A DNA stretch of 64,000 nt, from NCBI RefSeq assembly GCF_031202265.1, contig NZ_CP100604.1, positions 2,462,501 through 2,526,500 of the forward strand, written 5' to 3'. Origin of the DNA: Bradyrhizobium sp. Ash2021. GTDB lineage: Bacteria > Pseudomonadota > Alphaproteobacteria > Rhizobiales > Xanthobacteraceae. The notes beneath the pieces are model-generated. The model was not told where the DNA came from. It saw nothing but the letters and a program-made list of their open reading frames with translations, and searched no databases. This document shows, one piece after another, positions 18,299 to 37,462 of this stretch (positions are counted from its first letter, which is position 1; the number at the start of each line of letters is the position of its first letter). The translations under genes and the position numbers were made by a program.

Positions 18299-18324
18299 GT
18301 AACCAAACCACCTCGGTCCGCGAA
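18299..18324 (+). promoter_or_regulatory. SigF-type ECF promoter, site 1 (GTAACC-N16-CGAA)
   Basis: GTAACC at 18299-18304, sixteen bases, CGAA at 18321-18324. It begins CTGTAACCAAACC, as do three other sites here. It points at the flavoprotein gene at 18477, leaving a leader of about 145 nt. A palindrome GCAGGCG-N12-CGCCTGC (18271-18277 and 18290-18296), enclosing AAGAAATTTCT, abuts the -35 element and could be an operator. Confidence 0.75.
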
Positions 18325-18476
18325 CTAGCTACGTCGTACCACGCCGGACGTGCGGGGTGCGGTTTGGAGCGGAAAGACGGGACACGATGGATACAGAGAT
18401 GAGGGAGAGGAACACTACTGCGCGACGCTCTTCCAGCCTGTCAGCTGGTTCGGTGGATTATATTTGAGAGGACATC

Positions 18477-19922
18477 ATGTCTCAGGCGGAACAGTTCGAT
18501 ATCGTCGTTCTCGGCAGCGGCCAAGGTGGCAAGTTGCTCGCGTGGCACCTTGGCAGGTCAGGCAGGAAGGTTGCGGTTGTAGAGCGCCGCTGGGTCGGTG
18601 GCTCGTGCCCTGCCGTCGCCTGTCTGCCATCCAAGAACGAGTTGTGGAGTGCGCGGATCGCCCATCTCGTCCAGAACGCCGCGCAGTTCGGCACATTGAA
18701 CGCCGCCGTCAGAACCAATATGGGCAAGGTTCGCCAGCGCAAGCAGGACATGATCGATCGTGAGATCGCATTCCATGTAAACGCCTACAAGCAGAGCGGA
18801 GTCGATCTCATCATGGGCAGCGGCCGTTTCGTGGGGCCGAAAACGATCAGGGTGGAACTGGCTGTTGGCGGAACGCGTCTGCTCACGGGTAACGAGATTA
18901 TCGTGAATGTTGGTTCGCGCGCCGCCATCCCGGATATTGCTGGTCTCAAGGCGGCTCGTGCGCTCACTCACATCGAGGCCCTCGAACTCGACTATTTACC
19001 CTCACACCTGATCGTACTCGGCGGCGGCTATGTTGGGATCGAGATGGCGCAGGCTTTCCGCCGGTTCGGCAGCCGCGTGACGATCATCGAGCCTGGCCGG
19101 CAACTCATGGGACGGGAAGATGCTGACGTTTCCGAGGAGATTCTGCAGATTCTGAGAGGCGAGGGTATCGAGATCTTGGTCAACGCCAAGCCGGTCAGCG
19201 TTGAGGGTCAATCCGGAGATGCAATTGCCGTGACCGTGCGTACAGCCGCGGGCGAGCGGAAGATTGAGGGCAGCGACCTGCTCGTGGCAGTTGGCCGAGT
19301 TTCGAATACCGATGGGATCGGGCTCGCTGAGGCAGGGGTGGAACTCGATGCACGCGGCTTCATTCGTGTGAATGAGCGGCTAGAAACGACAGCCCCGCGC
19401 GTCTGGGCCATCGGCGAATGTGCGGGAAGCCCGCAGTTCACACATGTGTCGGTCGATGATTTTAGGATAGTCAGAGACAATATGACGGGCGGCAACCGCA
19501 CAACGGGCGACCGGCTCGTTCCCTATGTCATGTTCACGGATCCGCCGCTCGCCCGTGTCGGCCATTCCGAGGGGGAAGCCAAGCGGCAGGGGATTCCGGT
19601 GCGTATCGGCAAGCTGCCGATGTCCAGTGTCCTTCGTACGGAAGCGACCGACGAGACCTAGGGCTTCATGAAGGTGGTTGTCGGCGCGGATGACGACACG
19701 ATCCTCGGCTTTACGATGATTGGCTCCGAGGCGGGCGAAGTGATGGCCGCCATCCAGGCCGCGATGCTGGCAGCGCTTCCCTACACGAAGCTGCGTGACG
19801 CTGTCATCGCCCATCTCACGATGGCAGAAGGCCTTGGTCCACTCCTTTCGAATGTGCCGCCGCGGAATGCCGCCGGCAGCAGAAAGTCCGCATTGAGCCA
19901 TCATGCGGGCGCTCCTCAGTGA
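18477..19922 (+). pseudogene. Mercuric-reductase-like FAD/NAD(P) disulfide oxidoreductase, split by TAG
   Basis: GAGAGGAC precedes ATG 18477. Frame 1 gives 394 residues. They include the FAD motif VVLGSGQGGKLLAWHL, the redox pair in GGSCPAVACLPSKNE (C-x4-C present), the NAD motif IVLGGGYVGIEMAQAF and AIGECAGSPQFTH. A TAG at 19659-19661 follows TEATDET; the frame then continues without shift as GFMKVVVGADDDTILGF to 19922. That is the expected dimerisation domain with ERGFMK-like sequence. One substitution (for example CAG to TAG) therefore splits an otherwise complete ~481-residue class-I flavoprotein. The usual substrate class is mercuric ion or other disulfide/quinone targets. The C-terminal C-C pair typical of MerA is not seen. 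Confidence 0.85.
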
Positions 19923-20089
19923 CGTAGTCAAGACCTAGGTTCGTTAGCTGCGGCGGCGTTCGTCACCGGCGCGGCGGGCGCATCGGCAGGCAAATTGCGC
20001 TCATTTTCGCTTGCGAAGGGGGAAGGGTGGCCATCGTCGACCTGAACAGAGATGTGGTGCAATCAGTCGCCGACTAGAGGCAGAGCAAG

Positions 20090-20914
20090 ATGCGAATCCT
20101 CTTCATCGGCGACGTTGTAGGCGCAGCGGGTCTGGCTGCGCTTTCATCGTTTCTTCCGCCGCTACTCTCACGTTGGCAGGTAGACATTACAATTGTGAAT
20201 GGTGAGAACTCTGCCGATGGCGGCTTCGGGATAACCTTTGATTCCTACCGGGCGATAAGAGAAGCGGGGGCCGACGTAGTGACCCTTGGCAACCACTCGT
20301 GGAGCCGCAAAGAGGCACTCGAACTGATTCAGAGGGAACCCTATCTTATCCGCCCAGTCAATTACTTGCCGGGTACGCCAGGGGCTGGACTCGTGGAGGT
20401 CCAGACCGCAACGCAAAAGCGCGTGCTAATCATCAACGCTCTGGGCCGATTGTTCATGGAGCCTGCCGACGATCCATTTGGTGCCGTCGCTCGTATCCTC
20501 GCAGAGCGGCGTCTGGCACGAGACGTAGATGCGACGGTCCTCGATTTCCATTGCGAGGCGACCGGTGAAAAGCAGGCAATGGGATATTTCTGCGACGGGC
20601 GAGCTAGTCTCGTCGTCGGCACACATACTCACACGCCAAGCGCAGATTGCCGCGTTCTGCCCCATGGTACCGCTTACATTACAGACGCGGGGATGACCGG
20701 TAACTACGATTCTGTCATTGGTATGGAAAGGAGCGAGCCAATCAATCGGTTCGTGACCGGCATGTCGTCGGGTCGCTTTGTGCCGGCCGCGGGAGCTGCG
20801 ACGATGTGCGGTGTTGCCGTCGAGACGGACGACGAGACAGGTCTCGCGGTCAGAGCCGCAGCAGTCAGGGTCGGGCCAAATCTTGAGGAGCAGAAACCTC
20901 AATTTTGGGAATGA
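20090..20914 (+). CDS. YmdB-family metallophosphoesterase
   Basis: 274 residues. MRILFIGDVVG, NGENSADGGFGI, LGNHSW, DFHCEATGEKQAM, GTHTHTPSAD and DAGMTGNYDSVIGM follow the TIGR00282 (YmdB) order of metal-binding motifs. The usual GNHTWD is GNHSWS here, and the other ligands (D, N, E, H, H) are present. Studied YmdB proteins are cytosolic 2',3'-cyclic phosphodiesterases; the fold is confident, the substrate inferred. AGAGGCAGAGCAAG precedes ATG 20090. The gene ends 40 bp before SigF-type site 2. Confidence 0.88.
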   Translation: MRILFIGDVVGAAGLAALSSFLPPLLSRWQVDITIVNGENSADGGFGITFDSYRAIREAGADVVTLGNHSWSRKEALELIQREPYLIRPVNYLPGTPGAGLVEVQTATQKRVLIINALGRLFMEPADDPFGAVARILAERRLARDVDATVLDFHCEATGEKQAMGYFCDGRASLVVGTHTHTPSADCRVLPHGTAYITDAGMTGNYDSVIGMERSEPINRFVTGMSSGRFVPAAGAATMCGVAVETDDETGLAVRAAAVRVGPNLEEQKPQFWE

Positions 20915-20953
20915 AATGGACAGAGCTTTCGCGACGAAATAGGCCAAATGCCT

Positions 20954-20979
20954 GTAACCAAACCCGAACCACCCGCGAA
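20954..20979 (+). promoter_or_regulatory. SigF-type ECF promoter, site 2
   Basis: GTAACC 20954-20959, sixteen bases, CGAA 20976-20979, reading CTGTAACCAAACC as at sites 1, 3 and 4. The haloalkane dehalogenase start is 61 bp downstream with a Shine-Dalgarno in between. This places it as the promoter of the 21041-23870 gene run. Confidence 0.75.
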
Positions 20980-21040
20980 TATAGGTTCGTCAAATCATGT
21001 GGGCGCGCCGATGATAAACGGCTACCACGGAGAAACGAAT

Positions 21041-21925
21041 ATGATCTCTGCGGCGTTTCCATACCGAAAGCAGCGGCGGCGGGTCCTCGGCAGAGAGATG
21101 GCCTATGTGGAGGTGGGAGAGGGCGACCCCATCGTGCTGCTGCACGGCAATCCCACCTCGTCGTACCTCTGGCGCAACGTGTTGCCGTACCTGCAGCCAC
21201 TAGGCCGCTGCATCGCCCCCGATCTGATCGGCATGGGCGACTCCGACAAGCTGCCCGACAGTGGCCGCGACTCGTATCGCTTCGTCGAGCACCGGCGCTA
21301 CCTTGACGCCCTGCTCGAGGCCCTGGATGTGCGCGAGCGGGTCACCTTGGTCGTCCATGACTGGGGTTCGGCCCTCGGCTTCGACTGGGCCAACCGCCAC
21401 CGCGAGGCCGTGAAGGGTATCGCGTACATGGAGGCGATCGTGGGGCCGCAGTACTGGGACCACTGGGACAAGTTCGACATGCGTCCCGCCTTGCAGGGGC
21501 TGCGTTCAGAGAAGGGCGAGGAGATGGTCCTGCAAAACAACTTCTTCATCGAGCAGATCCTGCCGGGGGCCATCCTGCGCACCCTCTCCGCGGAGGAGAT
21601 GGCGGAGTACCGGCGGCCGTTCGCCGAGCCCGGCGAGGGGCGGCGGCCGACGCTGACGTGGCCCCGGCAGATCCCCATCGAGGGCGAGCCCGCCGACGTG
21701 GTTGCGATCGCGAACGCCTACGCGGACTGGCTGAAGACGAGCAATGTGCCCAAGCTGTTCTTGAGGGCTGAGCCCGGTGGAATCCTCGCCCAAGGCGCGG
21801 TTCTCGACTTGGCCCGCAGCTTCCCGGCGCAGACCGAGGTGACGATCGCGGGACTCCATTTCGTCCAGGAAGATTCGCCGGACGAGATCGGGCGGGCCGT
21901 AGCCGGCTGGATGCGGAAGTTATAG
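21041..21925 (+). CDS. Haloalkane dehalogenase (HLD-II type)
   Basis: 294 residues from MISAAFPYRK, with GGAG in a correct position; the longer frame from 20948 would start before the promoter element. Alpha/beta-hydrolase with the full HLD-II set: nucleophile D107 in VVHDWGSALGF, halide-binding N37 (HGNPTSS) and W108, acid E131 (AYMEAI) and base H273 (GLHFVQEDSP). It hydrolyses carbon-halogen bonds of haloalkanes to alcohol plus halide; cytoplasmic, with no leader. The three genes 21041-23362 look more GC-rich than the flanking DNA, suggesting import. Promoter site 2 precedes it. Confidence 0.92.
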   Translation: MISAAFPYRKQRRRVLGREMAYVEVGEGDPIVLLHGNPTSSYLWRNVLPYLQPLGRCIAPDLIGMGDSDKLPDSGRDSYRFVEHRRYLDALLEALDVRERVTLVVHDWGSALGFDWANRHREAVKGIAYMEAIVGPQYWDHWDKFDMRPALQGLRSEKGEEMVLQNNFFIEQILPGAILRTLSAEEMAEYRRPFAEPGEGRRPTLTWPRQIPIEGEPADVVAIANAYADWLKTSNVPKLFLRAEPGGILAQGAVLDLARSFPAQTEVTIAGLHFVQEDSPDEIGRAVAGWMRKL

Positions 21926-22020
21926 AGCGCACTTACGTCGAACTCCCCAGACTTCGGACGGTTGCCGATGTCCCCGGGGGTCGGTTGCCAAGGTGGTGCC
22001 GACGCTCAAATGCAGGAGAC

Positions 22021-22443
22021 ATGATGCTTGCCTTGGAGGTCGTCCCGCTGCCTGTCGCCGACGTCGACCGCGCGCTCGCGTTCTACGTCGGACAGGCCGG
22101 CTTCACCCTAGACGTTGACTACGGTCCCACTCCCCATTTCCGGATTGTGCAACTCACCCCGCCCGGGTCCGCGTGTTCGGTGCATCTTGTCGCGGCTGAC
22201 TCGCACAGCCGCGTGCATGATCTGTGCCTCGTTACGAGCGACCTGGAGGCCGAACGGGCGAAATTGATCGACCGTGGTGCCGACGTCAGCGCGGTCCGGC
22301 ACAAAGACCCGGTCGAGACCTGGGCCGGAGGATGGAGCATGGGGTTGGACCCCGAGCATCGCGACTATGCGAGCTTTGCGGATTTCGCCGATCCAGACGG
22401 AAATACCTGGATTTTGCAGGAACGTAGTCATCGCGCGCGATGA
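22021..22443 (+). CDS. VOC-superfamily (glyoxalase/dioxygenase-fold) protein
   Basis: 140 residues beginning MMLALEVVPLPVADVDRALAF, preceded by CAGGAG. The beta-alpha-beta-beta-beta pattern VxDVDRALAFYV...GFTLDVDYG and the C-terminal FADPDGNTWILQER ending with an acidic ligand are typical. The first His ligand of glyoxalases is not obvious, so catalysis is open. It lies 95 bp after the dehalogenase and 31 bp before the DUF427 gene, and is likely co-transcribed. Confidence 0.85.
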   Translation: MMLALEVVPLPVADVDRALAFYVGQAGFTLDVDYGPTPHFRIVQLTPPGSACSVHLVAADSHSRVHDLCLVTSDLEAERAKLIDRGADVSAVRHKDPVETWAGGWSMGLDPEHRDYASFADFADPDGNTWILQERSHRAR

Positions 22444-22474
22444 TGCGACGCGGCGAAACGAGAGGAGCATGACT

Positions 22475-23362
22475 ATGGGGCTCTCTTGGCAACAAGGCCC
22501 TCTGGGCGGCGCGACGGTGGGCCGCTTCCTCACCCCCGAGCCGCTTCCACAACGACTGCTGTTCGCCGAGCCCCTGCGCAGACGGATGCGAGTCAAGTTG
22601 GCTGGCGAGTGGATCGCCGACAGCGAAGATGTCGTCCTTCTCCACGAGCCGGGTCGCTACCCCGTCGCGTACTTCCCGCTCGCTGACGTCCGACCGGGTG
22701 TCCTCGTCAGCGAAAATCGAGCGACACAGCACCGCGACCTCGGCGATACCGCGTGGTTCAGCGCGAGCGTCGGAGACAGAAGTGCGGACCACGTCGCATG
22801 GCAGCACACCGCCCTGCCCGAATTTGCCCACGTGCTACAGGGCCGGGTCGCGTTTGCTTGGCGAGCGATGGACGCCTTCTACGAGGAGGACGAGCGCATT
22901 GTTGGCCACGCTGCCGACGCCTACCACCGCCTCGACATCCGCCAGAGCTCACGACACCTGGTCGTCAAGCTCGAAGATGGGGTAATCGCCGACACGACGC
23001 GCCCAGTCGTGTTATTCGAATCTGGCTTCGCGCCGCGCTGGTATGTGCCGCGCGAGGACATCGACGAGAACTCGCTGACGCCGGCCGAGGGACAAACGTT
23101 CTGCCCCTATAAGGGCTTGGCCAGCTATTACGACATCGGCAGCCGCAAGAAGGCGGCGTGGTCCTATCCGCAGGCCTGGCCCGAGGTTGCACGGGTCTCC
23201 AACCTTGTCTCGTTCGAGCCGGACAAGATCGATGTCTTCCTGGACGACAAAAAGCTCGTTCTCGCGCCGGGTCAGAGCGTTGTGCCGCACGGAATCGACC
23301 GAGGCCTGGATCCTGGCGAAATGCTAGGGCGGGGTGACAAAATTGCCCACCCGCGCAACTGA
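22475..23362 (+). CDS. Tandem DUF427-domain protein
   Basis: 295 residues. Two DUF427 units: the first (about 35-130) with VKLAGEWIADSEDVVLLHE and YPVAYFPLADV; the second (about 165-270) with KLEDGVIADTTRPVVLFES, RWYVPREDI, CPYKGLASYYDI and AWSYPQAWPEVARVSNLVSF, the conserved block. Function of the domain is unknown. ATG 22475 is preferred to 22469 because the GAGGAG spacing is about seven bases for the former and only one for the latter. Part of the dehalogenase run. Confidence 0.85.
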   Translation: MGLSWQQGPLGGATVGRFLTPEPLPQRLLFAEPLRRRMRVKLAGEWIADSEDVVLLHEPGRYPVAYFPLADVRPGVLVSENRATQHRDLGDTAWFSASVGDRSADHVAWQHTALPEFAHVLQGRVAFAWRAMDAFYEEDERIVGHAADAYHRLDIRQSSRHLVVKLEDGVIADTTRPVVLFESGFAPRWYVPREDIDENSLTPAEGQTFCPYKGLASYYDIGSRKKAAWSYPQAWPEVARVSNLVSFEPDKIDVFLDDKKLVLAPGQSVVPHGIDRGLDPGEMLGRGDKIAHPRN

Positions 23363-23369
23363 ATCGATC

Positions 23370-23870
23370 ATGCCACAGGCCTGGATGCTCGACCGACCTC
23401 ACCTACTTGCCATTCTCGCCGGAGCGGCCGGGGGCGCAATTGCCATCGGGAGCATGGAAGCGTTCTCCATTGAGAGGGCATTTCCGCTCTTCGCGATTCC
23501 ATTCGCGACGTCGATCGTAACAGCATTGGGCTCACCAAAGGCAGAACCGGCGCAACCTCGCGCCCTTGTCGGCGGTCATCTTGTCTCCACGCTCGTTGGA
23601 CTGCTGGTTGTGAAATTGTGCGGCCCAGCGCCGTGGGCCGCCGCCGTCGCTGTTGGTTTGGCAATGGTCGCAATGCATCTGACCGGCACGTTTCACCCGC
23701 CTGCCGGCATCGATCCGCTGGTTGTTGTCGTCAACAACATGTCCTGGAGCTTTCTGATTGTGCCAGTTGGCATCGGCGCCGTGCTGCTCGCAACGTTTGC
23801 TTTTGCTTGGCACAATCTCGTCACGCGAGGCGTTAATGAAGGAGATACCTGGCCCATCCGGTGGTGGTGA
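23370..23870 (+). CDS. HPP-family membrane protein
   Basis: 166 residues with four hydrophobic helices. The diagnostic segment is TGTFHPPAGIDPLVVV, where HPP names the family, together with AxGSPxAxPAQPRALVGGH earlier. HPP proteins are small integral membrane proteins; some cyanobacterial and plant members transport nitrite. The role here is unknown. The GTG at 23334 is an alternative start; ATG 23370 is chosen because it keeps a short cytoplasmic leader. Last gene of the 21041-23870 run. Confidence 0.8.
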   Translation: MPQAWMLDRPHLLAILAGAAGGAIAIGSMEAFSIERAFPLFAIPFATSIVTALGSPKAEPAQPRALVGGHLVSTLVGLLVVKLCGPAPWAAAVAVGLAMVAMHLTGTFHPPAGIDPLVVVVNNMSWSFLIVPVGIGAVLLATFAFAWHNLVTRGVNEGDTWPIRWW

Positions 23871-23937
23871 CCTTGAAGCATTTCACACTCGTCGCGTTTC
23901 AGCCGGGGAAAGCATGCCAGCTTCGCTTGTTAGTATG

Positions 23938-24985: not shown

Positions 24986-25675
24986 TCAGCGCCAAAGTTT
25001 TATCATTTGGGTTGCGACTGCTGGCAGATCCGGGCCGACAACCTGCGGCTGGGGCAACCCATTCACAGGCAGCGCAGCATTACCGGGTCTGGCAATGAGC
25101 GCTCCTGAACAGCCAATGCTTTGCGCACCAATCGTGTCCCACACATGCGCCGCCACCATGCAAATCGCGGACGGCGGTACATTCAATTCTTCAGCGACCA
25201 TGTGGTACACCTGCGGGGCCGGTTTAAAGCGACGAACGCGATCGATGCTGAACGACCTTTCAAACCAGCCATCAATGCCTGCATGCTTGAGCGGGCTGGT
25301 TTGCGGATCGGGAGGCGAATTAGTGCATGTCACCAGACGGAACCCAGCGTCTTTTAATTGCTTCAGACCAGTTGGCACATCGGCGTGCGCCGGCATTGTG
25401 AGCATCCGTGTTCTCAATTCGTCAATGTCTGCCTCGGTAATGGAGACGTTGTGGATCGTGCCCAGCATCTTCAAGACACCCTGTCCCAACGTGAAGAACG
25501 TCACGTAGGGGCCTGACAAGGTCATTGCCTCCGAATAGAGGATGAGCTGTCCAAACCACTCGCGCATTGCCTTCCGATCGCCAAACAGTCGCTCAAACAG
25601 CGGCGCTATGAACTCAATATCGAGCAGCGTCTCATTGACATCGAAAACACATACTGATGGTTTCACGGCGTCCAT
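24986..25675 (-). CDS. 2-haloacid dehalogenase (HAD type II), N-terminal leader frameshifted
   Basis: 229 residues from MDAVKPSVCVFDVNETLLDI. HAD motif I FDVNETL, motif II CTNSPPD, motif III KPAPQVYHM and AAHVWDTIG are intact, so the catalytic domain should work. It is closely similar to the Tat-exported protein at 46765. Upstream, a good ribosome site (CGGAGAAACC) precedes ATG 25802, which reads MSDELLGSAVRR, the same start as that paralogue (MTDDLLLSMSRR). A frameshift then separates it from GHHGAAAIIPVGRAALA and the catalytic domain. The export signal is thus broken, and the enzyme, if made from 25675, stays in the cytoplasm. SigF-type site 5 lies upstream. Confidence 0.82.
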   Translation of the reverse strand: MDAVKPSVCVFDVNETLLDIEFIAPLFERLFGDRKAMREWFGQLILYSEAMTLSGPYVTFFTLGQGVLKMLGTIHNVSITEADIDELRTRMLTMPAHADVPTGLKQLKDAGFRLVTCTNSPPDPQTSPLKHAGIDGWFERSFSIDRVRRFKPAPQVYHMVAEELNVPPSAICMVAAHVWDTIGAQSIGCSGALIARPGNAALPVNGLPQPQVVGPDLPAVATQMIKLWR

Positions 25676-25928: not shown

Positions 25929-26718
25929 CTAATTATTCGGACGCATGGCCAAACCGGTTACAGCCTGGAGGATTATTTCGACGACCAATTCCGGCGCGGT
26001 AACCAAGGGCGTATGGTCGACCTTTCAGACCTGGTCTGCGCGCCCATACGTCGCGCCAGGAATTGCTGAGTAATCGGGTTGATCATCCGATCCTCTTGCG
26101 CAACAAGATCCAGGAGGGTTTTGCCCTCCGCGCCAGCCTCGGTGCCTTTTCCTGAATGCATGCGAGGGCTATGGGACGCTGCGTTGCTGCCAAGAGCGCC
26201 GCCTGCTCGGACAAAGCGTGCTAAGCAAAGGTCGTGCCAAATCGATCGTCGGGCATCCAAAGGAAGCCATGCTTGTCAGGAGCCAGTTGAGGTGCCTCCG
26301 GATGCGGCTTTTCGCGATAGAAGACCTCTCCAACGGTCTCGCCTTCGTCAGGGGTCAGAGCCGCAATGAAGACCAGCGACCGAACTCTTTGGTTGAAACT
26401 TGCCCCTATCACCGCGCCGGCATAAGCATGGGCAACCAGAACGGCCGGCCCATTGGTCCGCTCCAATGCGCTTTCAAGCGCTGTGACATCATCTGACAAT
26501 GACGTTAGCGGAATCGGAGCGGCGAGGACCCTCAGCCCCTCGGATTGCAGCGGCTTGATAACGCGTGTCCAGCTGGAGCCGTCGGCCCAAGCGCCGTGCT
26601 CGATTTCCGCAAGGCGCAACTGTCGGTCGTTCTGGTTGCGAAGCATTAGATGTCCCTTACGAGACGCCGGCAAAGTCCCGCTTGATGCGAGAGTCCTCCT
26701 CATCGCATGTCCCTTCAC
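25929..26718 (-). pseudogene. Alpha/beta hydrolase, multiple frameshifts
   Basis: The first frame (26718 to 26221) has HGAWADGSSWTRVIKPLQ, ALERTNGPAVLVAHAYAGAV and LTPDEGETVGEVFYRE, ending at HGFLWMPDDRFGTTFA-stop. A second frame (to 25973) resumes with LLDLVAQEDRMINPITQQF and ARRMGAQ. A third supplies KVDHTPLVTAPELVVEIILQ and ends at TAG 25929-25931. Together they rebuild a ~260-residue hydrolase with its C-terminal His (KVDHTP), broken at two or more places. The elbow is AHAYAG instead of G-x-S-x-G, which I believe is usual in this subfamily. Its ATG overlaps the sigma-factor stop (ATGA). Confidence 0.8.
25936..25961 (-). promoter_or_regulatory. SigF-type ECF promoter, site 5 (minus strand)
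   Basis: On the minus strand GTAACC (25961-25956), sixteen bases, CGAA (25939-25936). The flanks differ from sites 1-4 (GCTGTAACCGG) because it lies in the last codons of the decayed hydrolase gene. It points to the 2-haloacid dehalogenase, 134 bp before ATG 25802. Position and orientation fit, but the codons it overlaps would permit it by chance more easily than the intergenic sites. Confidence 0.55.
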
Positions 26719-27476
26719 TCCTCGGTCACGGGATTGCGCAGTTTGCGGATCGGCAGACCTTTTGAGTGCCTCAGGTGCCGAGGCTCTGAAGAATTGTCGG
26801 ACGTCGTTGCCGCAATGACGTCACAGGACACCAAGGCAGCCAGTTTCTTGAGACCTCGATGGATGTTGATCTTGACGAGCGCTGTGGATTGGCCACTTGC
26901 GCCGGATGCGCGTGCGATGCTCAGGCCCTTCAGTTTTACGAGGCGGATCACGCAGGCTTGCGCAGGCTTCAGCCGGCCAAGGAGATTTTCCATCACCGCG
27001 GCGCTTATCGCGGCTCCCCCGTGATCCTCGATCGGTATTTCGTCGTCAAGCGGTAGTGCGGCGAATCGAGACGCGTCACGAACCCGATCGATCCACTTGT
27101 AGCGCGCGATCGCGGTGACCCATGCTCCGAAAGCTCTCGACGGTGCGTATGTGTGCCGATTGGCATGGATCGCAAGAAGTGCTTCCTGCCTCGCATCTTC
27201 GGAAGCGGGACTCGGAAGCCGGCGCGCATAGTAGCGGCGCAGCCACGCGTCCAATTCTCGCAGCAATTGCTCGTAGGCGCGGCCGTCGCCAGCTTGTGCC
27301 GCGGTCATCAGGTAACCCCATCGCTCGGAGCGCCTGTCCCAATTCTCGGACCGGATTTCTGTTCGCGCCGTTTGCCGTGGACGAATCGCGAGATCGGACG
27401 ACGACGTTCTCTGAACAGCATCGGCGACGGGTGGCGTTGAGCCGAGTGTCGAGGTATTATTGTGTAGGGCGGTCAT
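26715..27476 (-). CDS. ECF sigma factor, SigF (ECF16)-like
   Basis: 253 residues from MTALHNNTSTLG, with AGAGGAG eight bases upstream. Region 2: RWGYLMTAAQAGDGRAYEQL, EDARQEALLAIHANRHTYAP and FGAWVTAIARYKWIDRVRD. Region 4: LKPAQACVIRLVKLKGLSI and ASGQSTALVKINIHRGLKKL. The RW-x2-LM-x-AA and RHTY-x-P-x-R-x-(F)G-x-W signatures are those I associate with SigF-type ECFs. The N-terminus has a ~60-residue extension, and about 40 residues follow region 4. Instead of the usual downstream DUF1109/NrsF anti-sigma gene, it overlaps an upstream receiver gene by 20 bp and a hydrolase relic by 4 bp. It is a candidate reader of the five GTAACC-N16-CGAA sites. Confidence 0.88.
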   Translation of the reverse strand: MTALHNNTSTLGSTPPVADAVQRTSSSDLAIRPRQTARTEIRSENWDRRSERWGYLMTAAQAGDGRAYEQLLRELDAWLRRYYARRLPSPASEDARQEALLAIHANRHTYAPSRAFGAWVTAIARYKWIDRVRDASRFAALPLDDEIPIEDHGGAAISAAVMENLLGRLKPAQACVIRLVKLKGLSIARASGASGQSTALVKINIHRGLKKLAALVSCDVIAATTSDNSSEPRHLRHSKGLPIRKLRNPVTEE

Positions 27477-27921
27477 TGGAGAGGCTCCTCTCGACCCAAT
27501 CAAGCAGGGAGGCTGTTTCAAACGGCTTTCTGAGAAGACATTGCGCGCCCGCCGCAATTGCTTCATCGTCTAAACGCTTGTCAGGCAGAGCCGTGATCAG
27601 GATTACGGGTGTCATGATTCCCTGTTCGTGGAACCTTCTTACGAGGTTAAGTCCACCCATCCCGGGCATATGAACATCAGCGATGACACAGTCGAAGCTG
27701 AGCAGTGTTGACGACGTCAAGAACGCTTCCGCCGAGATATACGGCTCGACCCGACAGCCGATGGAGCGCATCAAATCCACAAGGGACAAGCTAAGCGCTT
27801 CATCGTCGTCGATGACTGCGACGAGCGGGCTTGTCACCGAATGTAACCTCGCCAGGTGCGCGCAATCCTGGAAAGGCAATGGGGACGAAGGCGCCATCCC
27901 AGGTGAGGCCGTGTCGCCCAT
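27457..27921 (-). CDS. Receiver-only response regulator overlapping the sigma gene
   Basis: 154 residues. The receiver domain (about 32-150) has the acidic pair VAVIDDDEAL, phospho-Asp in IADVHMPGMGG, Thr-region ILITALP and Lys in LLRKPFE; no output domain follows. The first 30 residues are unusual for a receiver, so a later start is possible. Its end overlaps the sigma-factor start by 20 bp, meaning coupled translation. Encoding a single receiver with an ECF sigma suggests phosphorylation-controlled release or partner switching, an inference from the arrangement. The nearest kinase candidates are the MASE4 and GAF-PAS kinases in this window. Confidence 0.88.
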   Translation of the reverse strand: MGDTASPGMAPSSPLPFQDCAHLARLHSVTSPLVAVIDDDEALSLSLVDLMRSIGCRVEPYISAEAFLTSSTLLSFDCVIADVHMPGMGGLNLVRRFHEQGIMTPVILITALPDKRLDDEAIAAGAQCLLRKPFETASLLDWVERSLSNDRPTQ

Positions 27922-28087: not shown

Positions 28088-28107
28088 ACCCATACGTTGG
28101 TATGGGT
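28088..28107. terminator. Perfect 8-bp hairpin after the FixJ-like gene
   Basis: ACCCATAC-GTTG-GTATGGGT, followed on the plus strand by TTTTC. It lies 27 bp beyond the stop of the minus-strand FixJ-like gene and separates it from the receiver-sigma operon, so the two are probably separate transcripts. Confidence 0.5.
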
Positions 28108-28133: not shown

Positions 28134-28748
28134 TCATGTCTGGATGTCGAGGGCCTCTGCTATCCGAGCGAGCGTTGCTACGGATTTTGCTCTGAGCTTT
28201 CGCATGACGTTGCCGCGATGCATCTTCACGGTGACTTCGCTAATCGACAATTCGTTCGCGACCTGTTTGTTCATGAGCCCGGACGCGACAAGCGCCATCA
28301 CTTGCCGTTCGCGGGACGTCAGGAGTTCATACCGCTCCTGCAATTGAGCAATCTGCGCGCCCTCTCGACGCCGGTCTTGGTCAATTCGAATCGCCGTCGC
28401 AACGGCATCAATCAAATCCTGATGCCTTATCGGTTTGGTCAGGAAGTCGACAGCGCCGGCCTTCATGCCCCTCACAGACATGGGAATGTCGCCATGACCG
28501 GTCATCAAAATGACAGGCACCCGGATATTGATGCGTGCCAGATACTCTTGTAGCTCCAATCCGCTTGTGCCCGGCAGCCGAACGTCGAGCACGAGACACC
28601 CGGGAGCGTCGAGCAGCTCAACCTTGAGAAACTCTGACGCGGATCCATAAAGCGCGACTTCATAGCCCATGGACCGAAGCAGATCTCCAAGTGACTCACG
28701 GACCTCCTTGTCGTCATCGACGATGTGAACAAAAAAAGACGACGACAC
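28134..28748 (-). CDS. FixJ-type response regulator (orphan copy)
   Basis: 204 residues. GTG start at 28748, two bases after the TGA of the kinase relic, exactly as in the intact pair at 39236/39239. The receiver has HIVDDDKEV, phospho-Asp in LDVRLPGTSG, MTGHGDIPMSV and Lys in LTKPIR. The LuxR-type output has LTSRERQVMALVASGLMNKQVA and SISEVTVKMHRGNVMRKL. It differs from the 39239 copy at scattered positions and lacks that copy's C-terminal tail. Its own kinase is deleted, so it depends on another kinase, perhaps the 37590 one. Confidence 0.9.
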   Translation of the reverse strand: MSSSFFVHIVDDDKEVRESLGDLLRSMGYEVALYGSASEFLKVELLDAPGCLVLDVRLPGTSGLELQEYLARINIRVPVILMTGHGDIPMSVRGMKAGAVDFLTKPIRHQDLIDAVATAIRIDQDRRREGAQIAQLQERYELLTSRERQVMALVASGLMNKQVANELSISEVTVKMHRGNVMRKLRAKSVATLARIAEALDIQT

Positions 28749-28750
28749 TC

Positions 28751-28969
28751 TCAGTGGCTCCTGGACATCTGGACGGATTGGCGAAGCGGGAGAGTGAAAG
28801 TGAATGTCGCGCCATGCGTGGTGTTTTCCTCCATCCATAGACGTCCTCCATGGACTGCAACAATTTTGCGGCAGATCGACAGGCCTAGGCCATCACCTTT
28901 CTCTCTCGAGATCGCCTGAAACGCTTTGGCGATCAGCTCTATTTCTGACGCTTTGTTCTCAAGCCTCAT
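28751..28969 (-). pseudogene. Histidine kinase with ~1.4-kb internal deletion
   Basis: A 72-codon frame made of the first ~24 residues of the 37590 kinase (MRLENKASEIELIAKAFQAIS) fused in frame to its last ~50 (GDGLGLSICRKIVAVHGG ... ATFTFTLPLRQS). The GAF, PAS and phospho-His regions and the N and G1 boxes (about 474 residues) are missing. The sequence just before the ATG also matches the intact copy. It cannot be a kinase; it is the deleted twin of the 37590 gene, still coupled to its regulator. Confidence 0.85.
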
Positions 28970-29119: not shown

Positions 29120-29145
29120 GTAACCAAACCAGTCCACCCCACGAA
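29120..29145 (+). promoter_or_regulatory. SigF-type ECF promoter, site 3
   Basis: GTAACC 29120-29125, sixteen bases, CGAA 29142-29145, again as CTGTAACCAAACC with CGAAAGTAGT after it, as at site 4. GCAGGCAAGAAATTTCT just upstream echoes site 1. It points at the alpha/beta hydrolase starting at 29267. Confidence 0.75.
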
Positions 29146-30127: not shown

Positions 30128-30241
30128 GAACCTGGTGATGGCCCGTTAGCAGACAGCGAGACGACGATAATGAACTATCTCACGTTCATACCGGATGGTT
30201 GGGATCCGGCAAACGATGATCCTAGCGTAAGAGAGGTCACC

Positions 30242-30502
30242 ATGAAATCGTTTCTTCCAGGTGCGCTTTTGTTCGCTTTCGCAGTGGCGCCAAGCGCGGC
30301 GGTCGCCGATAAGTTCCGATCGCCGTCCGAGGCCCGAAGCAAAACGACCGAGGACGTGCATGTGCAGCCACGAGGACGGAGCTTCGCTCCAGGCTCTGCC
30401 GACGATAATGACATCCAGAGAAAACTCGAAAGCTTCAACAAGGCGCAGCAGAATCTGGACAAGTCATTAGACAAGAAGTTGATCATCTGTCGCCGCTGTT
30501 AG
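30242..30502 (+). CDS. Small exported protein with C-terminal KLIICRRC (Cys-tail family B)
   Basis: 86 residues from MKSFLPGALLFAFAVAPSAA, ribosome site AGAGAGGTC. After the Sec signal (about 1-22) the mature part contains VHVQPRGRSFAPGSADDND, a helix IQRKLESFNKAQQNLDKSL and the end DKKLIICRRC. VHVQPRGxxFAPxSAxDD and the end are shared with the 52026 protein; the end alone is shared with 17609. Family unknown. Confidence 0.8.
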   Translation: MKSFLPGALLFAFAVAPSAAVADKFRSPSEARSKTTEDVHVQPRGRSFAPGSADDNDIQRKLESFNKAQQNLDKSLDKKLIICRRC

Positions 30503-30791: not shown

Positions 30792-32396
30792 CTAGGATGG
30801 AGTGCCCGGAACTACCGGCACCGTGAAGTGAAAAATGGCGCCGCGGCCTTCATTGGCGGTCACCCACAATTGCCCTTCATGCGCCTCGATAATCGACCGG
30901 CAGATCGACAGCCCCATGCCCATGCCGTGCGTTTTGGTCGTGAACATTGGGTTGAATATCCGGTCCACGGCACCGGGCTCGAGGCCTTTCCCCGTGTCTT
31001 CCACCGACACCATCACATATCTGGAGTGATGGACTTCAGACTTTATGGATAACACCCGCTCCTCATTCTTCGTGACCATGGAGTCAATTGCGTTCGTAAT
31101 CAAATTCATCAGCACTTGTTGCAGCTGGATCTGTTCGCCTGTTATCCGTGGCAGCCGTTCGTTAGGGTCGAATTGAACGGCAACGCGATGTGTTTGCAGT
31201 TTGTCGCGAACGACGGCCAAAGCTTCCTGGATGAGGTCGTCGATATCAAGCGAAGTGCGGGTCCGTGCACCCATCTTGAAATGCGCCCGGATATTTTCGA
31301 TCACGGCGTCCGCGCGGTGTCCGGCGGTCACGACGAGGCGCAATGCATCCCTGGCCTCATCGAGGTTAGGGTCGACACGATCAAGCCAATTCAATCCCGC
31401 GCTCGCACTGGTTATGATCGCCCCTAATGGCTGTTTGACTTCGTGGGCAATCGAAGCCGAGACGGCGTCGCCGGTCATCAGCCGCGCCTCACGTTCGCGA
31501 CGCTGCGCCAGCAGGGCGCGGTGCAGTTGCGCGTAAAGCGTCGTTATCTCATACAACAGGACACAGAGTACAAGAATGCTGGACACGAACCCGAGGACCC
31601 GGCCGGCATACCAGCCGGCGCTGAACCGGGCCAGATCGGACAACGAGGGCATATAGATCTCAATTGCATACGCGCAAACGACCACCATCAGCCACAGATC
31701 GAGGACCGAATGCTGGCGCATCCAGAGCAAAGTGAGCGCAAGTGCATTCCACAGGATTAGACAACCGACCGTATAATAGGAGAGGGTAGAAAAATGGACC
31801 AGGTCGAGCATGGTGCGGGGCAAGTGCGCTTGCCCCGCTGTGACAAGAAACGTCGCTACAATCACGACGGCCGCGGTCACGGCCACACTCGAAAGAATGG
31901 CCGCACCGGCGGAACCCCGCCACAGCCCCTTGGCCGGATCGGCATCCTTCAAAAGGGCGTACGCGATGACGAACGTAGGAAAACCGGCGTGCCACAGATT
32001 ATAAAGCCAAGTCGTGCTCTGTAGCCCCGCGCCAAGCAGGCCACCTGGCGTGAAGACGCCCGGAAAGGTCAGCATCCACGGGATCACGATAAGTGCCATG
32101 AAGAGATATCCACTCGCGATCGCGAGGAGGGCACGCGAGCGCATGATGGCGAACTGGTTGAACAGCAGGACCGCGGTGATCAAGTCATTCACGAAGACCG
32201 CCGTGCCGTAGGCCGGGACGAAGGCATCGATCCGCCCCAGCTGGATGTTCGAGAGCCCCCCTGCCAAGATTAAAACGGCGCCAAAGAAGGAGAGCACGAT
32301 CGCAAGCGCGAGCCGTTTTTGCGGCCGGCTCGGCGGTAAGTTCGCAAGGGTGAAAGGCTGATCCTCTGGGACAATGAAAGGCGGCTTCTTCATCAT
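30792..32396 (-). CDS. MASE4-type membrane histidine kinase, copy 1
   Basis: 534 residues. About eight N-terminal membrane helices (30-300) show MASE4-like motifs AFVPAYGTAVFVNDLITAVL, RALLAIASGYLF and TFPGVFTPGGLLGAG. Cytoplasmic kinase: phospho-His region SIAHEVKQPLGAI, N box NLITNAIDSM, G1 DTGKGL and G2 GMGMGLSICRSII. No receiver is fused or adjacent. The protein is nearly the same as 33501-35102, which lies in opposite orientation. A short coupled leader frame (MRMAKLSLVPRVPAAAKSRS) overlaps its start by ATGATGA in both copies. Confidence 0.92.
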   Translation of the reverse strand: MMKKPPFIVPEDQPFTLANLPPSRPQKRLALAIVLSFFGAVLILAGGLSNIQLGRIDAFVPAYGTAVFVNDLITAVLLFNQFAIMRSRALLAIASGYLFMALIVIPWMLTFPGVFTPGGLLGAGLQSTTWLYNLWHAGFPTFVIAYALLKDADPAKGLWRGSAGAAILSSVAVTAAVVIVATFLVTAGQAHLPRTMLDLVHFSTLSYYTVGCLILWNALALTLLWMRQHSVLDLWLMVVVCAYAIEIYMPSLSDLARFSAGWYAGRVLGFVSSILVLCVLLYEITTLYAQLHRALLAQRREREARLMTGDAVSASIAHEVKQPLGAIITSASAGLNWLDRVDPNLDEARDALRLVVTAGHRADAVIENIRAHFKMGARTRTSLDIDDLIQEALAVVRDKLQTHRVAVQFDPNERLPRITGEQIQLQQVLMNLITNAIDSMVTKNEERVLSIKSEVHHSRYVMVSVEDTGKGLEPGAVDRIFNPMFTTKTHGMGMGLSICRSIIEAHEGQLWVTANEGRGAIFHFTVPVVPGTPS

Positions 32397-32560: not shown

Positions 32561-32976
32561 GGCGCATGCGCCAATGACCGAAGCTCCATCGTTCCCGCTC
32601 CCCGTTCGATCAGACGCCACGGGTGACATCAGAGTATATCTCATTTGAACGTGGAGAGGGGCACACCCACGCTACTTATCGATGGGCGGCGCCCGTGCCC
32701 CCCCGCGCCCGGCGCGGGAGGGCAAAAGGTCTAAGCCGCGCCATTCTGGTGTTAAGCCGGGGATCGATAGAGAAAACTCATAAAATCATAATAAACACAA
32801 CGACATATGGCCGAGAGAGTGTCCATTCACATAGGCCTCGCTAAAGCTCGGCTAGGCCCGTCACGCTCTTCAACATCAATCAGTTAGTGGCGGCACAAGC
32901 CCGCTCCATTCCGGAGGCCTCCAATGGGCAATTCAATGGGGAAGAGGTAGGTGGCCGTGATCGGCATCAAGGAGAG

Positions 32977-33111
32977 TCATATTCCCTTGCCGTGATCATC
33001 GGAATCAATCGTCAGGGCGAGTACGAGGCGCCAAATAGCAGGGGCAGCCAGCACCACAATGGGAATGGTTGTCGTCCATGCAATCAGCCAGGAGCCGAGC
33101 CAGTTAGCGAT
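32977..33111 (-). pseudogene. DUF2798-like membrane protein remnant
   Basis: The frame carries ANWLGSWLIAWTTTIPIVV then LAAPAIWRLVLALT, matching the C-terminal half of DUF2798 small membrane proteins (LGSWL-x-AW...VV-x-AP-x-x-RRLV). The N-terminal half has no second helix and no start. It lies in the space between the two inverted kinase copies. Confidence 0.45.
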
Positions 33112-33339
33112 CCCACCACAAGCGTCATCAATCGCTATCTTCCAGATTGTTTCGGCGAAGTGATCGGCTCGACTCGCAGATCGCGACGGGGCCACTCGCG
33201 TCGACTTTGACGTGCCGCCCGATATGCCAAAATCGACGCGAATGACCCCAACCAGACATCGATCTCCACGTTCAAACAAGATATATACTGATCCCACGCA
33301 TGGAGCATTCGTCACTGGCGCGTCCGCAACCGCCGAAAA

Positions 33340-35102
33340 CCCTGCCAGCCCAGCTTTTTCAGAGGCGGTGACGCTTCCTTAATCGTCGCAAGCTGTCTCG
33401 ATGGCAGAAATGGCGGTGAACGACGGCGGCCTTTGATGAGAATGGCGAAGCCGTTTGAGCTTCATGCCCTGCGTTCCAGCCACTGCCAAGAGTCGCTCCG
33501 ATGATGAAGCCGGCCGTCTTTGTCCCAGAGGATCAGCCTCTCACCCTTGCGAACTTACCGCCGAGCCGGCCGCAGAAACGGCTTGCGTTTGCGGTCGTGC
33601 TCACCTTGCTGGGCGCCCTTTTCATCTCGGCACCGAAGCTTTGGAACGTCCAGCTGGGGGGGATCGACGCCTTCGTCCCGGCCTATGGCACGGCGCTGGT
33701 CGTGAATGACTTGATCACCGCGGTTCTGCTGTTCAACCAGTTCGCCATCCTGCATTCGCGTGCCCTCCTCGCAATCGCGAGTGGGTATCTCTTCGCAGGG
33801 TTTATGGTCATCCCGTGGATGCTGACCTTTCCGGGGGTGTTCACACCAGGTGGCCTGCTGGGCGCGGGGCTACAGACCGCGGCTTGGCTCTCCGCTCTGC
33901 GGTACGCCTGTATTCCTCCGTTCGTCATCGCATATGCCCTTTTGAACGATCCCGATCCGCCCAAGCGATTGTGGAAGGGCTCAGTGGGAGCGACCGTCGT
34001 TTGGAGTGTCGCGATGTCCGCGGCCATCGTATGCGCCGTGACATTTCTTGTCATAGCGGGTGATGCATATTTGCCCCCCATCTCCATCGATCTGGTCCGT
34101 TTTTCCACCTTCTGGCTTTATTTTGCCAGTTGTCTAATACTGTGGAACACACTTGCACTCATTTTGCTCTGGATCCGCAAGCGGTCGATACTCGATCTGT
34201 GGCTGATGGTGGTCGTTTGCGCGTATGCAATTGAGCTCTATCTGGTCGCGTTTCCTGGTCTGGCCCGGTTCAGCGCCGGCTGGTACGCCGGCCGAATCTA
34301 CGGGTACGTCGCCAGCATTCTTGTACTCTTTGTCCTGTTGTATGAGATAATGACGCTTTACGCGCAACTCCTCCGCGCGGTCTTGGCGCAGCGTCGCGAG
34401 CGTGAGACGCGACTGATGACCGGCGATGCCGTGTCAGCCTCAATTGCTCACGAAGTCAAACAGCCATTAACGGCGATCATAGCCAGTGCGAACGCAGGTT
34501 TAAATTGGCTCGATCGTGTCGAGCCTGAGCTCGATAGCGCCCGGAATGCGTTGCGACGCGTCGTGGCCACCGGACACCGTGCGGACGCCATGATCGAAAA
34601 TATCCGGGCGCATTTCAAGATGGGTGCACGGACACGCACTTCGCTTGATATCGACGACCTCATCCAGGAAGCTTTGGCCGTCGTTCGCGACAAACTGCAA
34701 ACACATCGCGTTGCCGTTCAATTCGACCCTAACGAACGGCTGCCACGGATAACAGGCGAACAGATCCAGCTGCAGCAAGTGCTGGTGAATTTGATTACGA
34801 ACGCAATTGACTCCATGGCTGCAAAGAATGGGGAACGAGTGCTGTCCATAAGGTCTGAAGTCCATCATTCCAGATATGTGATGGTGTCGGTGAAAGACAC
34901 GGGGAAAGGCCTCGAGGCCGGTGCCGTGGACCGGATATTCAACCCAATGTTCACGACCAAAACGCACGGCATGGGCATGGGGCTGTCGATCTGCCGGTCG
35001 ATCATCGAGGCGCATGAAGGGCAAATATGGGTGACCGCCAATAAGGGCCGCGGCGCCATTTTTCACTTCACGGTGCCGGTGGATCCTGGCAGCGCATCCT
35101 AA
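33340..35102. repeat. Inverted duplication, right arm
   Basis: Reverse-complement counterpart of 30792-32560, covering the upstream region and the whole kinase gene. The two arms point away from each other across a ~780-bp spacer. Confidence 0.75.
33501..35102 (+). CDS. MASE4-type membrane histidine kinase, copy 2
   Basis: 533 residues, same architecture as 30792-32396: MASE4 membrane part, SIAHEVKQPLTAI phospho-His region, NLITNAIDSM, DTGKGL and GMGMGLSICRS. The cytoplasmic half is almost identical to copy 1 by eye, while the membrane half has more substitutions (for example WNVQLGGIDAFVPAYG versus SNIQLGRIDAFVPAYG). This suggests sensor divergence after duplication, or gene conversion of the kinase half. 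ATGATG start, AGTCGCTCCG upstream. Orphan: no regulator next to it. Confidence 0.92.
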   Translation: MMKPAVFVPEDQPLTLANLPPSRPQKRLAFAVVLTLLGALFISAPKLWNVQLGGIDAFVPAYGTALVVNDLITAVLLFNQFAILHSRALLAIASGYLFAGFMVIPWMLTFPGVFTPGGLLGAGLQTAAWLSALRYACIPPFVIAYALLNDPDPPKRLWKGSVGATVVWSVAMSAAIVCAVTFLVIAGDAYLPPISIDLVRFSTFWLYFASCLILWNTLALILLWIRKRSILDLWLMVVVCAYAIELYLVAFPGLARFSAGWYAGRIYGYVASILVLFVLLYEIMTLYAQLLRAVLAQRRERETRLMTGDAVSASIAHEVKQPLTAIIASANAGLNWLDRVEPELDSARNALRRVVATGHRADAMIENIRAHFKMGARTRTSLDIDDLIQEALAVVRDKLQTHRVAVQFDPNERLPRITGEQIQLQQVLVNLITNAIDSMAAKNGERVLSIRSEVHHSRYVMVSVKDTGKGLEAGAVDRIFNPMFTTKTHGMGMGLSICRSIIEAHEGQIWVTANKGRGAIFHFTVPVDPGSAS

Positions 35103-35267
35103 TCGGGCTCCATCCGTATCGCGGCCGGCCGCAAGTGCTTAGTGGTAGCCTTCTGCGCCGCCCAAGTCCGACTGTGGCACTTTTCTGACCTAGCGAGCCA
35201 AGCCGGCGATGTCGGCTCATTCGGGGTAAAGCGGACGTCGCGTACCAGCCGACCGATGCCGCTGCGG

Positions 35268-36452: not shown

Positions 36453-36521
36453 TGTCCGCCCTCTGTTTTTGCTCGAGAGACTTTTCCGGGGCACGCGCCC
36501 AAGCGAACTCCCGGTCGAGCC

Positions 36522-36617
36522 CCAACCAAACTCGACCTAGTCATCAAACTCAAGGCCGCCAGGGCGCTCGGCGTCACGATACCGGAATCGTTCCTGCCGC
36601 GGCTGCGCGCCGACTAG
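36522..36617 (+). pseudogene. C-terminal relic of an ABC substrate-binding protein
   Basis: Thirty-one codons reading PTKLDLVIKLKAARALGVTI then PESFLPRLRAD-stop. This is close to the common end of pfam04392-type substrate-binding proteins (FDLVINLKTAKALGLTIP). No upstream part exists; the frame is antisense to the patatin leader region. Confidence 0.65.
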
Positions 36618-37014
36618 GTGATCGAATAAAGCACATAATTGCTACGGTGCATGAGTCTCTTCCTGGCACCCTTGAGACATGCCGACGGACGTCTCGAATG
36701 TCTGCTTGTCGGGGAAGACCAGAAGTGGTTGGCGCACCGTCAAAACGACGCGATTGACCCTAATCGGACTCATGCGACGCCTCATTCCGCCGATTGATAC
36801 GTCACCCATTTTGGACTAGGCCGTGTACTCATAAACCCGGCGGCATGACGCACCGACGTTGATGTCCGCTTTGCGCCCAAGGCGACGCGTTGTTGCGCAG
36901 CAGCGAAATGACGGAAGGCCAACAGCCGACATCCGCTCGGGCCCGACGGCCGGATCTTCGATCTTGTCGATTCCCTGCAGCCGCACATCGGATCACAGTG
37001 AGTTAGCCGCTGCG
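36618..37014. other. 400 bp of relic intergenic sequence
   Basis: Contains the second copy of the ~80-bp relic repeat (36673-36757), then sequence such as GTGTACTCATAAACCCGG and TGATGTCCGCTTTGCG. I associate these with degenerate repeats scattered between Bradyrhizobium genes. No gene seen. Confidence 0.45.
36673..36757 (+). repeat. Degenerate ~80-bp relic repeat, copy 2
   Basis: Shares TTGAGACATGCCGA, GAATGTCTG and GTCAAAACGxCGCGATTG with 23938-24020. Confidence 0.55.
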
Positions 37015-37350
37015 TCAAAGTTCAGCGAACCAGCCGTCGATGACCACTTCCGATCCAAGGATGTAGCTGGATGCGTCACTGGCGACGAACAGCACCGCAG
37101 CGGCGATTTCGTCGGGTTGTCCAAGGTGCCCGATTGGAATCAGCTCGCTGGCGCCCACGAGATAGTCGCGAAAGTCCGCTTCAGTCTGCCCGGAATGTTC
37201 GGATTGGCCCACGCCCCGAAGGATGGGCGTCTCGATCGGGCCCGGACTGACCAGTTAAGAAACCAAGGGCGTATCCGCTACGCCGTGTGTGTAGTGGCAG
37301 AACAAGTTCAATCCAGTTAGGCTAACTTTGCGATGTTGGATCTTAGCCAT
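37015..37350 (-). pseudogene. SDR gene with internal deletion, intact promoter and start
   Basis: ATG 37350 with ribosome site CTAGGAG starts MAKIQHRKVSLTGLN, the beginning of an SDR (…VLVTGAN). The frame soon ends at TAA 37260-37258. In the frame that follows, VSPGPIETPILRGVG, then LIPIGHLGQPDEIAAAVLF and YILGSEVVIDGWFAEL supply a normal SDR C-terminus. The middle (~150 residues: NNAG, Ser and YxxxK) is gone. SigF-type site 4 sits 87 bp upstream and is perfect, so a promoter still drives a dead gene. Confidence 0.75.
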
Positions 37351-37436
37351 GCAGACTCCTAGCGCTTCTACAATAGTAACGTCTCAGGTCCATTTGGTTA
37401 TCGCATAAATGGTCCAGCCACGTCTGACATACTACT

Positions 37437-37462
37437 TTCGCGGTTTGCTTCGGTTTGGTTAC
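37437..37462 (-). promoter_or_regulatory. SigF-type ECF promoter, site 4 (minus strand)
   Basis: On the minus strand GTAACC (37462-37457), sixteen bases, CGAA (37440-37437), again CTGTAACCAAACC before and CGAAAGTAGT after. It faces the SDR relic at 37350 and away from the kinase at 37590. Confidence 0.75.

Follow-up and report, generated by a model that had tools for sequence, protein, structure and literature searches.

A receiver-coupled ECF16-type sigma factor as the probable reader of a local GTAACC-N16-CGAA regulon in Bradyrhizobium sp. Ash2021

A 64,000-nucleotide (nt) stretch of the Bradyrhizobium sp. Ash2021 genome (contig NZ_CP100604.1, positions 2,462,501 to 2,526,500 of the forward strand; hereafter the window) carries a gene for an extracytoplasmic function (ECF) sigma factor, overlapped by a gene for a single-domain receiver, together with five exact copies of the sequence GTAACC-N16-CGAA. 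We propose, from comparison of this island with its relatives, that the five sites are most likely the promoters of a local regulon of the sigma factor encoded among them. It appears probable that a receiver-coupled sigma of the ECF16 type drives this regulon at the end of a chain of kinase, FixJ-like regulator, palindrome and receiver. The features concerned are as follows, with site scores taken from a matrix of relatives' sites only.

18299..18324, + strand: putative promoter site 1, facing a flavoprotein gene 178 nt downstream; C after CGAA; 28.1 bits
20954..20979, + strand: putative promoter site 2, facing a haloalkane dehalogenase gene; 32.5 bits
25936..25961, - strand: putative promoter site 3, facing a type II haloacid dehalogenase gene; 29.1 bits
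26715..27476, - strand: ECF sigma factor of the receiver-coupled clade; Pfam sigma-70 regions 2 and 4; DARQ motif; frame open to 27566, start probably at 27476
27457..27921, - strand: single-domain receiver, Pfam Response_reg only; overlaps the sigma gene by 20 nt; phospho-acceptor Asp, Thr and Lys present
28089..28106, no strand: palindrome CCCATACGTTGGTATGGG, proposed operator of the receiver–sigma operon; sole copy in the genome at up to one mismatch
28134..28838, - strand: FixJ-like response regulator with receiver and LuxR-type DNA-binding domains; candidate binder of the palindrome
29120..29145, + strand: putative promoter site 4, with an alpha/beta hydrolase gene 147 nt downstream; 31.7 bits
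37437..37462, - strand: putative promoter site 5, facing a short-chain dehydrogenase remnant and pointing away from the histidine kinase gene; 28.3 bits
37542..39236, + strand: GAF-PAS histidine kinase, with counterparts in 15 of the 24 relative loci searched
39239..39904, + strand: second FixJ-like response regulator, adjoining the kinase; 75–79% identical to the regulator at 28134
40285..41184, + strand: AraC-type regulator of the island

The window contains no exact match to GTAACC-N16-CGAA beyond these five. An earlier note on this DNA had placed them at these coordinates and strands, each oriented towards a gene (flavoprotein, haloalkane dehalogenase, haloacid dehalogenase, alpha/beta hydrolase and short-chain dehydrogenase remnant) and four of them sharing further sequence; all of this was confirmed, the four being sites 1, 2, 4 and 5, which have CTGTAACCAAACC in common. 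Its chance expectation of 0.12 matches was also of the right size; 100 dinucleotide shuffles of the window gave a mean of 0.07 exact matches and a maximum of 1. The whole-genome scan that it called for had a divided outcome. Across the 9.70-Mb genome there are 15 exact matches versus 27 for a reversed-pattern control, and a genome-wide excess was rejected; the local clustering stands, with 5 of the 15 in the window. Being at chance level genome-wide, the motif is anomalous as a local cluster. Two of the ten exact matches outside the window fall in the 20-kb locus of ECF16 paralogs (L055). The long form TGTAACCAAACC-N11-CGAANNTAG, allowing up to three mismatches, has four genome matches, all in the window, versus one for its reversed control.

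The same spacing recurs around relatives of the sigma gene. Among the 146 genomes of the genus that were searched, 16 besides the host have the sigma at 66–72% identity, giving 18 relative copies set apart from paralogs at 54% or less. In the 18 stretches around these copies (17 of about 20 kb and one of 10.7 kb), GTAACC and CGAA occur 46 times at a spacer of 16 versus 0–2 times at any one of the other spacers between 10 and 23, and every stretch has at least one exact site. Two further sets, from named genomes, gave the same picture: 50 occurrences at spacer 16 versus 0–4 at other spacers (12–21) in loci L066–L084, 13 of which 19 repeat copies counted in the first set, and 95 versus 0–6 in loci L085–L145. 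Across the 17 sigma-bearing genomes, TGTAACC-N16-CGAA is found 82 times versus 38 for its reversal. A matrix built from 65 relative sites, with the window left out, scores the window sites at 28.1–32.5 bits and the next best place in the 64 kb at 7.9, a gap that is partly built in because the relative sites were chosen by their exact core, the flanks supplying the rest. An open reading frame (ORF) starts between 60 nt before and 300 nt after 33 of 51 relative sites, compared with 16% of random places. That the sites are chance matches or copies of a repeat element, a reading with which the missing genome-wide excess agrees, is refuted in practice by the shuffles, the fixed spacer in relatives and the matrix gap of 28 versus 8 bits, and we give it next to no probability. 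As an aside, ECF16 sites stand at the same positions, near-identically, in L128, L130 and L143 (records of Gluconacetobacter, Ameyamaea and Acetobacter), as if recently transferred or mislabelled.

By family, the window sigma is like those of the ECF16 systems SigF–NrsF of Caulobacter, EcfF–OsrA of Bradyrhizobium japonicum and BcrS–AbcS of Brucella. The ECF16 promoter core is tGTAACc-N16-CGAA (PMC3511200, PMC3420878, PMC8315932), in agreement with the earlier note, which had given the motif as that of SigF-type sigmas. These sigmas are described as sensing through cysteines of NrsF-type anti-sigmas (PMC3420878, PMC8315932), and the EcfF operon is autoregulated (PMC3420878). The window sigma is 44–54% identical to three paralogs in its own genome. 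In a tree of 95 sigmas, computed by a quick method with no bootstrap, it falls in a group of 26 with a Shimodaira–Hasegawa-like approximate likelihood ratio support of 95, and the tree places this clade among NrsF-bearing sigmas. All 26 clade members carry DARQ in region 2, compared with none of the 69 others, of which 61 have the form (E/D)D-x-(V/A)-Q, seen in none of the 26. On the NCBIfam model PRK12539 the window sigma scores 132 bits against a cut-off of 171, and two NrsF-neighboured paralogs score 276 and 129. A protein search with the sigma returned 1,396 matches at E 1e-20 or better, other ECF sigmas included (the best 120 of the 1,396 being listed), and the clade looks widespread.

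The partner of the sigma is where the clade departs from its family. No NrsF gene lies within 1.5 kb of the sigma in either of two sets of clade loci (0 of 18, 0 of 20), whereas 56 of 60 outgroup loci have one there; the host genome has eight NrsF matches, none of them in the window. Nor does an exact site stand ahead of the sigma operon in any of 39 clade loci (two overlapping sets plus the window), compared with 25 of 72 NrsF-class loci. The earlier note had proposed a SigF-type regulon, and the shared promoter core and sigma family bear out that part of it. The rest did not hold: the window sigma belongs to a separate clade with its own signature, with no NrsF/DUF1109 partner beside the sigma and no autoregulatory site, a receiver in the operon, mostly A or T after CGAA, and hydrolases and dehalogenases among its probable targets. 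An ordinary SigF–NrsF regulon is therefore very improbable.

In place of an NrsF gene, the operon holds a receiver gene. In 15 of 18 and 15 of 20 clade loci this gene immediately precedes the sigma gene and overlaps it, an arrangement seen in none of 60 outgroup loci. Among the 26 distinct copies of the clade, 25 were testable, L085 being cut by a contig end, and the receiver adjoins the sigma in 22 of these (21 scored initially plus a Reyranella copy, L076). The two genes share 4 nt in 18 of 21 loci and 20 nt in the window. Of 22 receivers, 21 have the phospho-acceptor Asp, the exception (L040) being diverged across its first half, and the active-site Thr and Lys, read from the alignment, are present in all 22. 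The three receiver-less copies (L036, L038 and L039) form one subclade of the tree, for which a single loss is enough. We regard the evidence for both the sigma–promoter link and the exchange of partner from NrsF to receiver as strong, each resting on sequence comparison.

Another possible reader has to be weighed, namely an ECF16 paralog of this genome under NrsF control, with the window sigma reading something else. The GTAACC-N16-CGAA core is identical in both classes of locus, so that cross-talk is possible; the NrsF-neighboured paralogs of this genome have sites of their own, and in site 1 CGAA is followed by C, the mark of NrsF-class sites. Within the genus, however, A or T follows CGAA at 60 of 70 clade-locus sites and at 0 of 18 NrsF-class sites, and the classes also differ at spacer-side positions 7 and 10 and at the second base beyond CGAA.

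The target genes point the same way. The hydrolase encoded at 29267 was searched for in the 146 genomes and the 30 best loci were checked for an upstream site. An exact site stands within 400 nt of the hydrolase in 11 of 17 cases from sigma-bearing genomes (at distances of 109 to 147 nt) versus 0 of 13 from sigma-lacking genomes, a comparison that is not fully controlled, since the hydrolases from genomes without the sigma are also more distantly related. With one mismatch allowed, 13 of the 17 have a site within 400 nt, and three more sigma-bearing hydrolases have an exact site 1,082–1,324 nt ahead, where another hydrolase gene starts the run. One sigma-lacking genome, G140, keeps an island with two kinases, a FixJ-like regulator, an AraC gene, a receiver (70% identity), two palindromes and the hydrolase; no sigma gene follows its receiver, a profile search found no sigma-like ORF, elsewhere the genome has only 36% sigma matches, and 20 kb of this island contain no exact GTAACC-N16-CGAA. 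Reading by a paralog is, on the base after CGAA, the hydrolase comparison and the sigma-less island, a distinctly poor prospect. The gene at 26715 most likely reads these sites, which behave as promoters of one regulon, as the earlier note had supposed.

Comparison of the upstream regions of relatives revealed CCCATAC-N4-GTATGGG ahead of the receiver operon. In 26 clade loci, at up to two mismatches, it occurs 38 times with a spacer of 4 versus 0–2 times with spacers of 0–3 and 5–9, and 1.28 Mb of NrsF-class loci gave no match. Of the 22 loci with a receiver, 21 have it ahead of the receiver gene (L040 does not), and it is absent from the three receiver-less loci; a second copy is found in 17 loci, beside FixJ-like regulator and AraC genes in those mapped. 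Among the 146 genomes, the exact palindrome is present in 14 of 14 with the sigma and an intact receiver, in 0 of 3 with the sigma but no intact receiver, and in 3 of 129 that lack the sigma, G140 with its sigma-less island among them. The palindrome might instead be a terminator hairpin, as its inverted arms enclose a 4-nt loop and TTTT follows it on the + strand. Against this, the arm sequence is itself conserved, single changes in one arm go unmatched in the other, and no T-run follows on the strand of the receiver–sigma genes; a terminator is accordingly rather unlikely. Action of the regulator on the palindrome as an operator has moderate support from these patterns. A weak candidate for a second copy in the window, at 39882–39899, was rejected, having three mismatches and lying at chance level (two found, 1.41 expected); it falls where the FixJ-like gene at 39239 ends, a place at which relatives carry a good copy. 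A sigma-54 promoter ahead of the receiver operon was unconvincing, with four near-identical weak matches and two others in 22 sequences.

The kinase gene is divergent from an exact site 80–450 nt upstream in 13 of 15 kinase-bearing relatives, as in the window. Some relatives have an HWE kinase, for which the best counterpart in the window's genome is at 36%. Other two-component genes stand near by: a further FixJ-like regulator (50% identical to that at 28134) followed by a receiver-like gene (38%) at 52871–54054 (+), and, at 30792–32396 (-) and 33501–35102 (+), two MASE4 histidine kinases that closely resemble each other and run in opposite directions.

These data bear on another scheme in which the sigma is controlled by transcription only, through a FixJ-like regulator on the palindrome, the receiver being a phosphate sink or serving another target. 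The palindrome does accompany the receiver–sigma operon almost throughout, no clade locus has the autoregulatory site, and two-component systems are known to control ECF sigmas in this way (PMC8999054). The recurrent 4-nt overlap of the receiver and sigma genes and the retention of the receiver in nearly all copies are more than a phosphate sink would need, and we consider transcription-only control unlikely, if the least so of the alternatives. For the receiver-coupled reading, we infer action of the receiver on the sigma from the gene overlap and retention, with PorX–SigP and PhyR–NepR–EcfG as precedents.

In the first of these, the PorX–PorY–SigP system of Porphyromonas gingivalis, a response regulator binds an ECF sigma directly (PMC4800418). 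PorX carries a PglZ domain, has a gene number separate from that of sigP, and belongs to another phylum with another promoter; the window receiver has no PglZ domain by Pfam. In PhyR–NepR–EcfG, phosphorylation of a receiver frees an alphaproteobacterial ECF sigma (PMC8999054, PMC8103513); PhyR there has a sigma-like domain and acts through NepR, unlike the window protein, which by Pfam is a lone receiver domain. In Streptomyces, SigE (ECF39) is under CseBC, whose regulator transcribes the sigma gene (PMC8999054). Control of SigE is by transcription only, whereas the window sigma is additionally encoded with an output-less receiver. In the ECF43 type, activated by a Ser/Thr kinase, the acidic DAED motif has become uncharged; in our alignment of the window sigma with its relatives, ARQ is still preceded by acidic residues (ADD or SED), and giant Ser/Thr-kinase/histidine-kinase genes are present in several relative islands. 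A literature search of partial coverage found no ECF16 sigma that is coupled to a receiver or that controls a dehalogenase regulon, and a search on the palindrome brought up nothing but unrelated work, presumably primer sequences.

The genes behind the sites, and a hydrolase gene that follows the sigma gene, are these.

18477..19922, + strand: pyridine nucleotide-disulphide oxidoreductase of the MerA/RclA superfamily; frame closed by TAG at 19659–19661
21041..21925, + strand: haloalkane dehalogenase, NF002938 at 427 bits versus a cut-off of 241; supported also by solved haloalkane dehalogenases; start at 21041 likely
21985..23870, + strand: glyoxalase-like, DUF427 and HPP-type membrane genes behind the dehalogenase; probably co-transcribed with it
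24986..25672, - strand: type II haloacid dehalogenase, TIGR01428 at 201 bits versus a cut-off of 125; start probably at 25672
26221..26718, - strand: shortened alpha/beta hydrolase, directly behind the sigma gene; relatives have about 230–300 residues
29267..30127, + strand: alpha/beta hydrolase whose nucleophile position is Asp; scores under the cut-offs of all named families listed
30170..30502, + strand: small, apparently secreted protein with the tail KLIICRRC, 43 nt behind the hydrolase; probably co-transcribed with it

The target of site 5, a short-chain dehydrogenase remnant, was identified by reading the sequence alone. Among relatives the commonest kind of target is the alpha/beta hydrolase (13 relative sites, 15 counting the two of the window), followed by HAD hydrolases behind four relative sites (five with that of the window). 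When four relative HAD proteins were compared with NCBIfam at a strict E of 1e-50, only one qualified as a type II dehalogenase. A 1,861-residue Ser/Thr kinase-AAA-GAF-PAS-histidine kinase and its kin stand behind four relative sites; one such giant kinase gene (L045, 1554–7139) has an exact site 129 nt upstream, and relatives of these kinases elsewhere in the host genome are 49–51% identical. DUF427 genes lie behind three relative sites, gluconate 2-dehydrogenase subunit 3 with a GMC oxidoreductase and cytochrome c behind another three, and Abhydrolase_6 genes behind two. The dehalogenation theme of the earlier note holds for the window; in relatives the sites also stand ahead of giant kinase, DUF427 and redox genes. 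Some ECF16 systems answer hypochlorous acid (PMC8315932), and from this and the target genes we would guess at a halogen or reactive-chlorine theme for the regulon.

The flavoprotein of the MerA/RclA superfamily, the DUF417 proteins and the AraC-type regulator of the island are reminiscent of the RclR–RclABC reactive chlorine system of Escherichia coli, although the flavoprotein falls far below the RclA cut-off (292 versus 740 bits). Small proteins of 91–123 residues share the tail KLIICR(G/R/C)C, at 17609–17884 (+), 30170–30502 (+) and 52026–52334 (-) in the window, the third near the FixJ-like and receiver-like pair at 52871, and in relatives at L073 1529–1900, L078 141–512 and L079 777–1148. 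The window proteins look secreted and two of them have no Pfam match. Several island genes are broken or shortened, and beside the island, at 16297–17307 (+), is an ORF that by reading only is transposase-like.

A number of observations weigh against the receiver-coupled regulon as we draw it. L036, L038 and L039 retain the sigma and a promoter with neither an adjacent receiver nor the palindrome, so the receiver can be lost. With one mismatch allowed, the palindrome is found in 16 of 129 sigma-lacking genomes and its reversed control in 19 of 146, which leaves only the exact copies informative. The divergent site is missing beside the kinase of L076 and L084, and one sigma-bearing hydrolase (L153) has no site at all. 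As picked, 16 of 51 relative sites lie inside ORFs, compared with 81% of random places, and among the promoter positions compared within the genus, -1, 6 and 19 show no difference between clade and NrsF-class sites. In the window the gene of site 1, itself bearing the NrsF-class C, is broken and site 5 faces a remnant, so the regulon here is partly decayed. The more distant sigma-lacking hydrolases belong here too, G140 is a single case, and genomes of one genus are not independent.

With these points in the balance, the proposed course of events is as follows. A histidine kinase and a FixJ-like regulator of the island would switch on the receiver–sigma operon through CCCATAC-N4-GTATGGG; the receiver, produced together with the sigma from genes that overlap, would hold or license it according to its own phosphorylation state; and the sigma would bring RNA polymerase to GTAACC-N16-CGAA promoters, here within about 11 kb of its gene. 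The outcome would be more redox enzymes, HAD hydrolases, and hydrolases and dehalogenases with an Asp nucleophile, perhaps directed at halogenated compounds or reactive chlorine. The parts of this scheme that we infer are the identity of the acting kinase and regulator, contact of receiver with sigma, the direction of the switch and its signal. More broadly, and as an evenly balanced conjecture, the clade may have swapped the transmembrane redox anti-sigma of ECF16 for a phosphorylatable receiver in direct contact with the sigma; a single phosphorelay would then act twice, on transcription of the operon through the palindrome and on the sigma protein, with a local dehalogenase and redox island as its regulon.

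Collectively, the findings point to an undescribed mode of control for ECF16-class sigmas. A clade with the same promoter and a different partner would be a sigma family rewired from redox sensing to two-component signalling, and would add to PhyR and PorX a small instance of an ECF sigma acted on by a response regulator. It would also offer a handle on how soil bradyrhizobia may induce haloalkane and haloacid dehalogenases.

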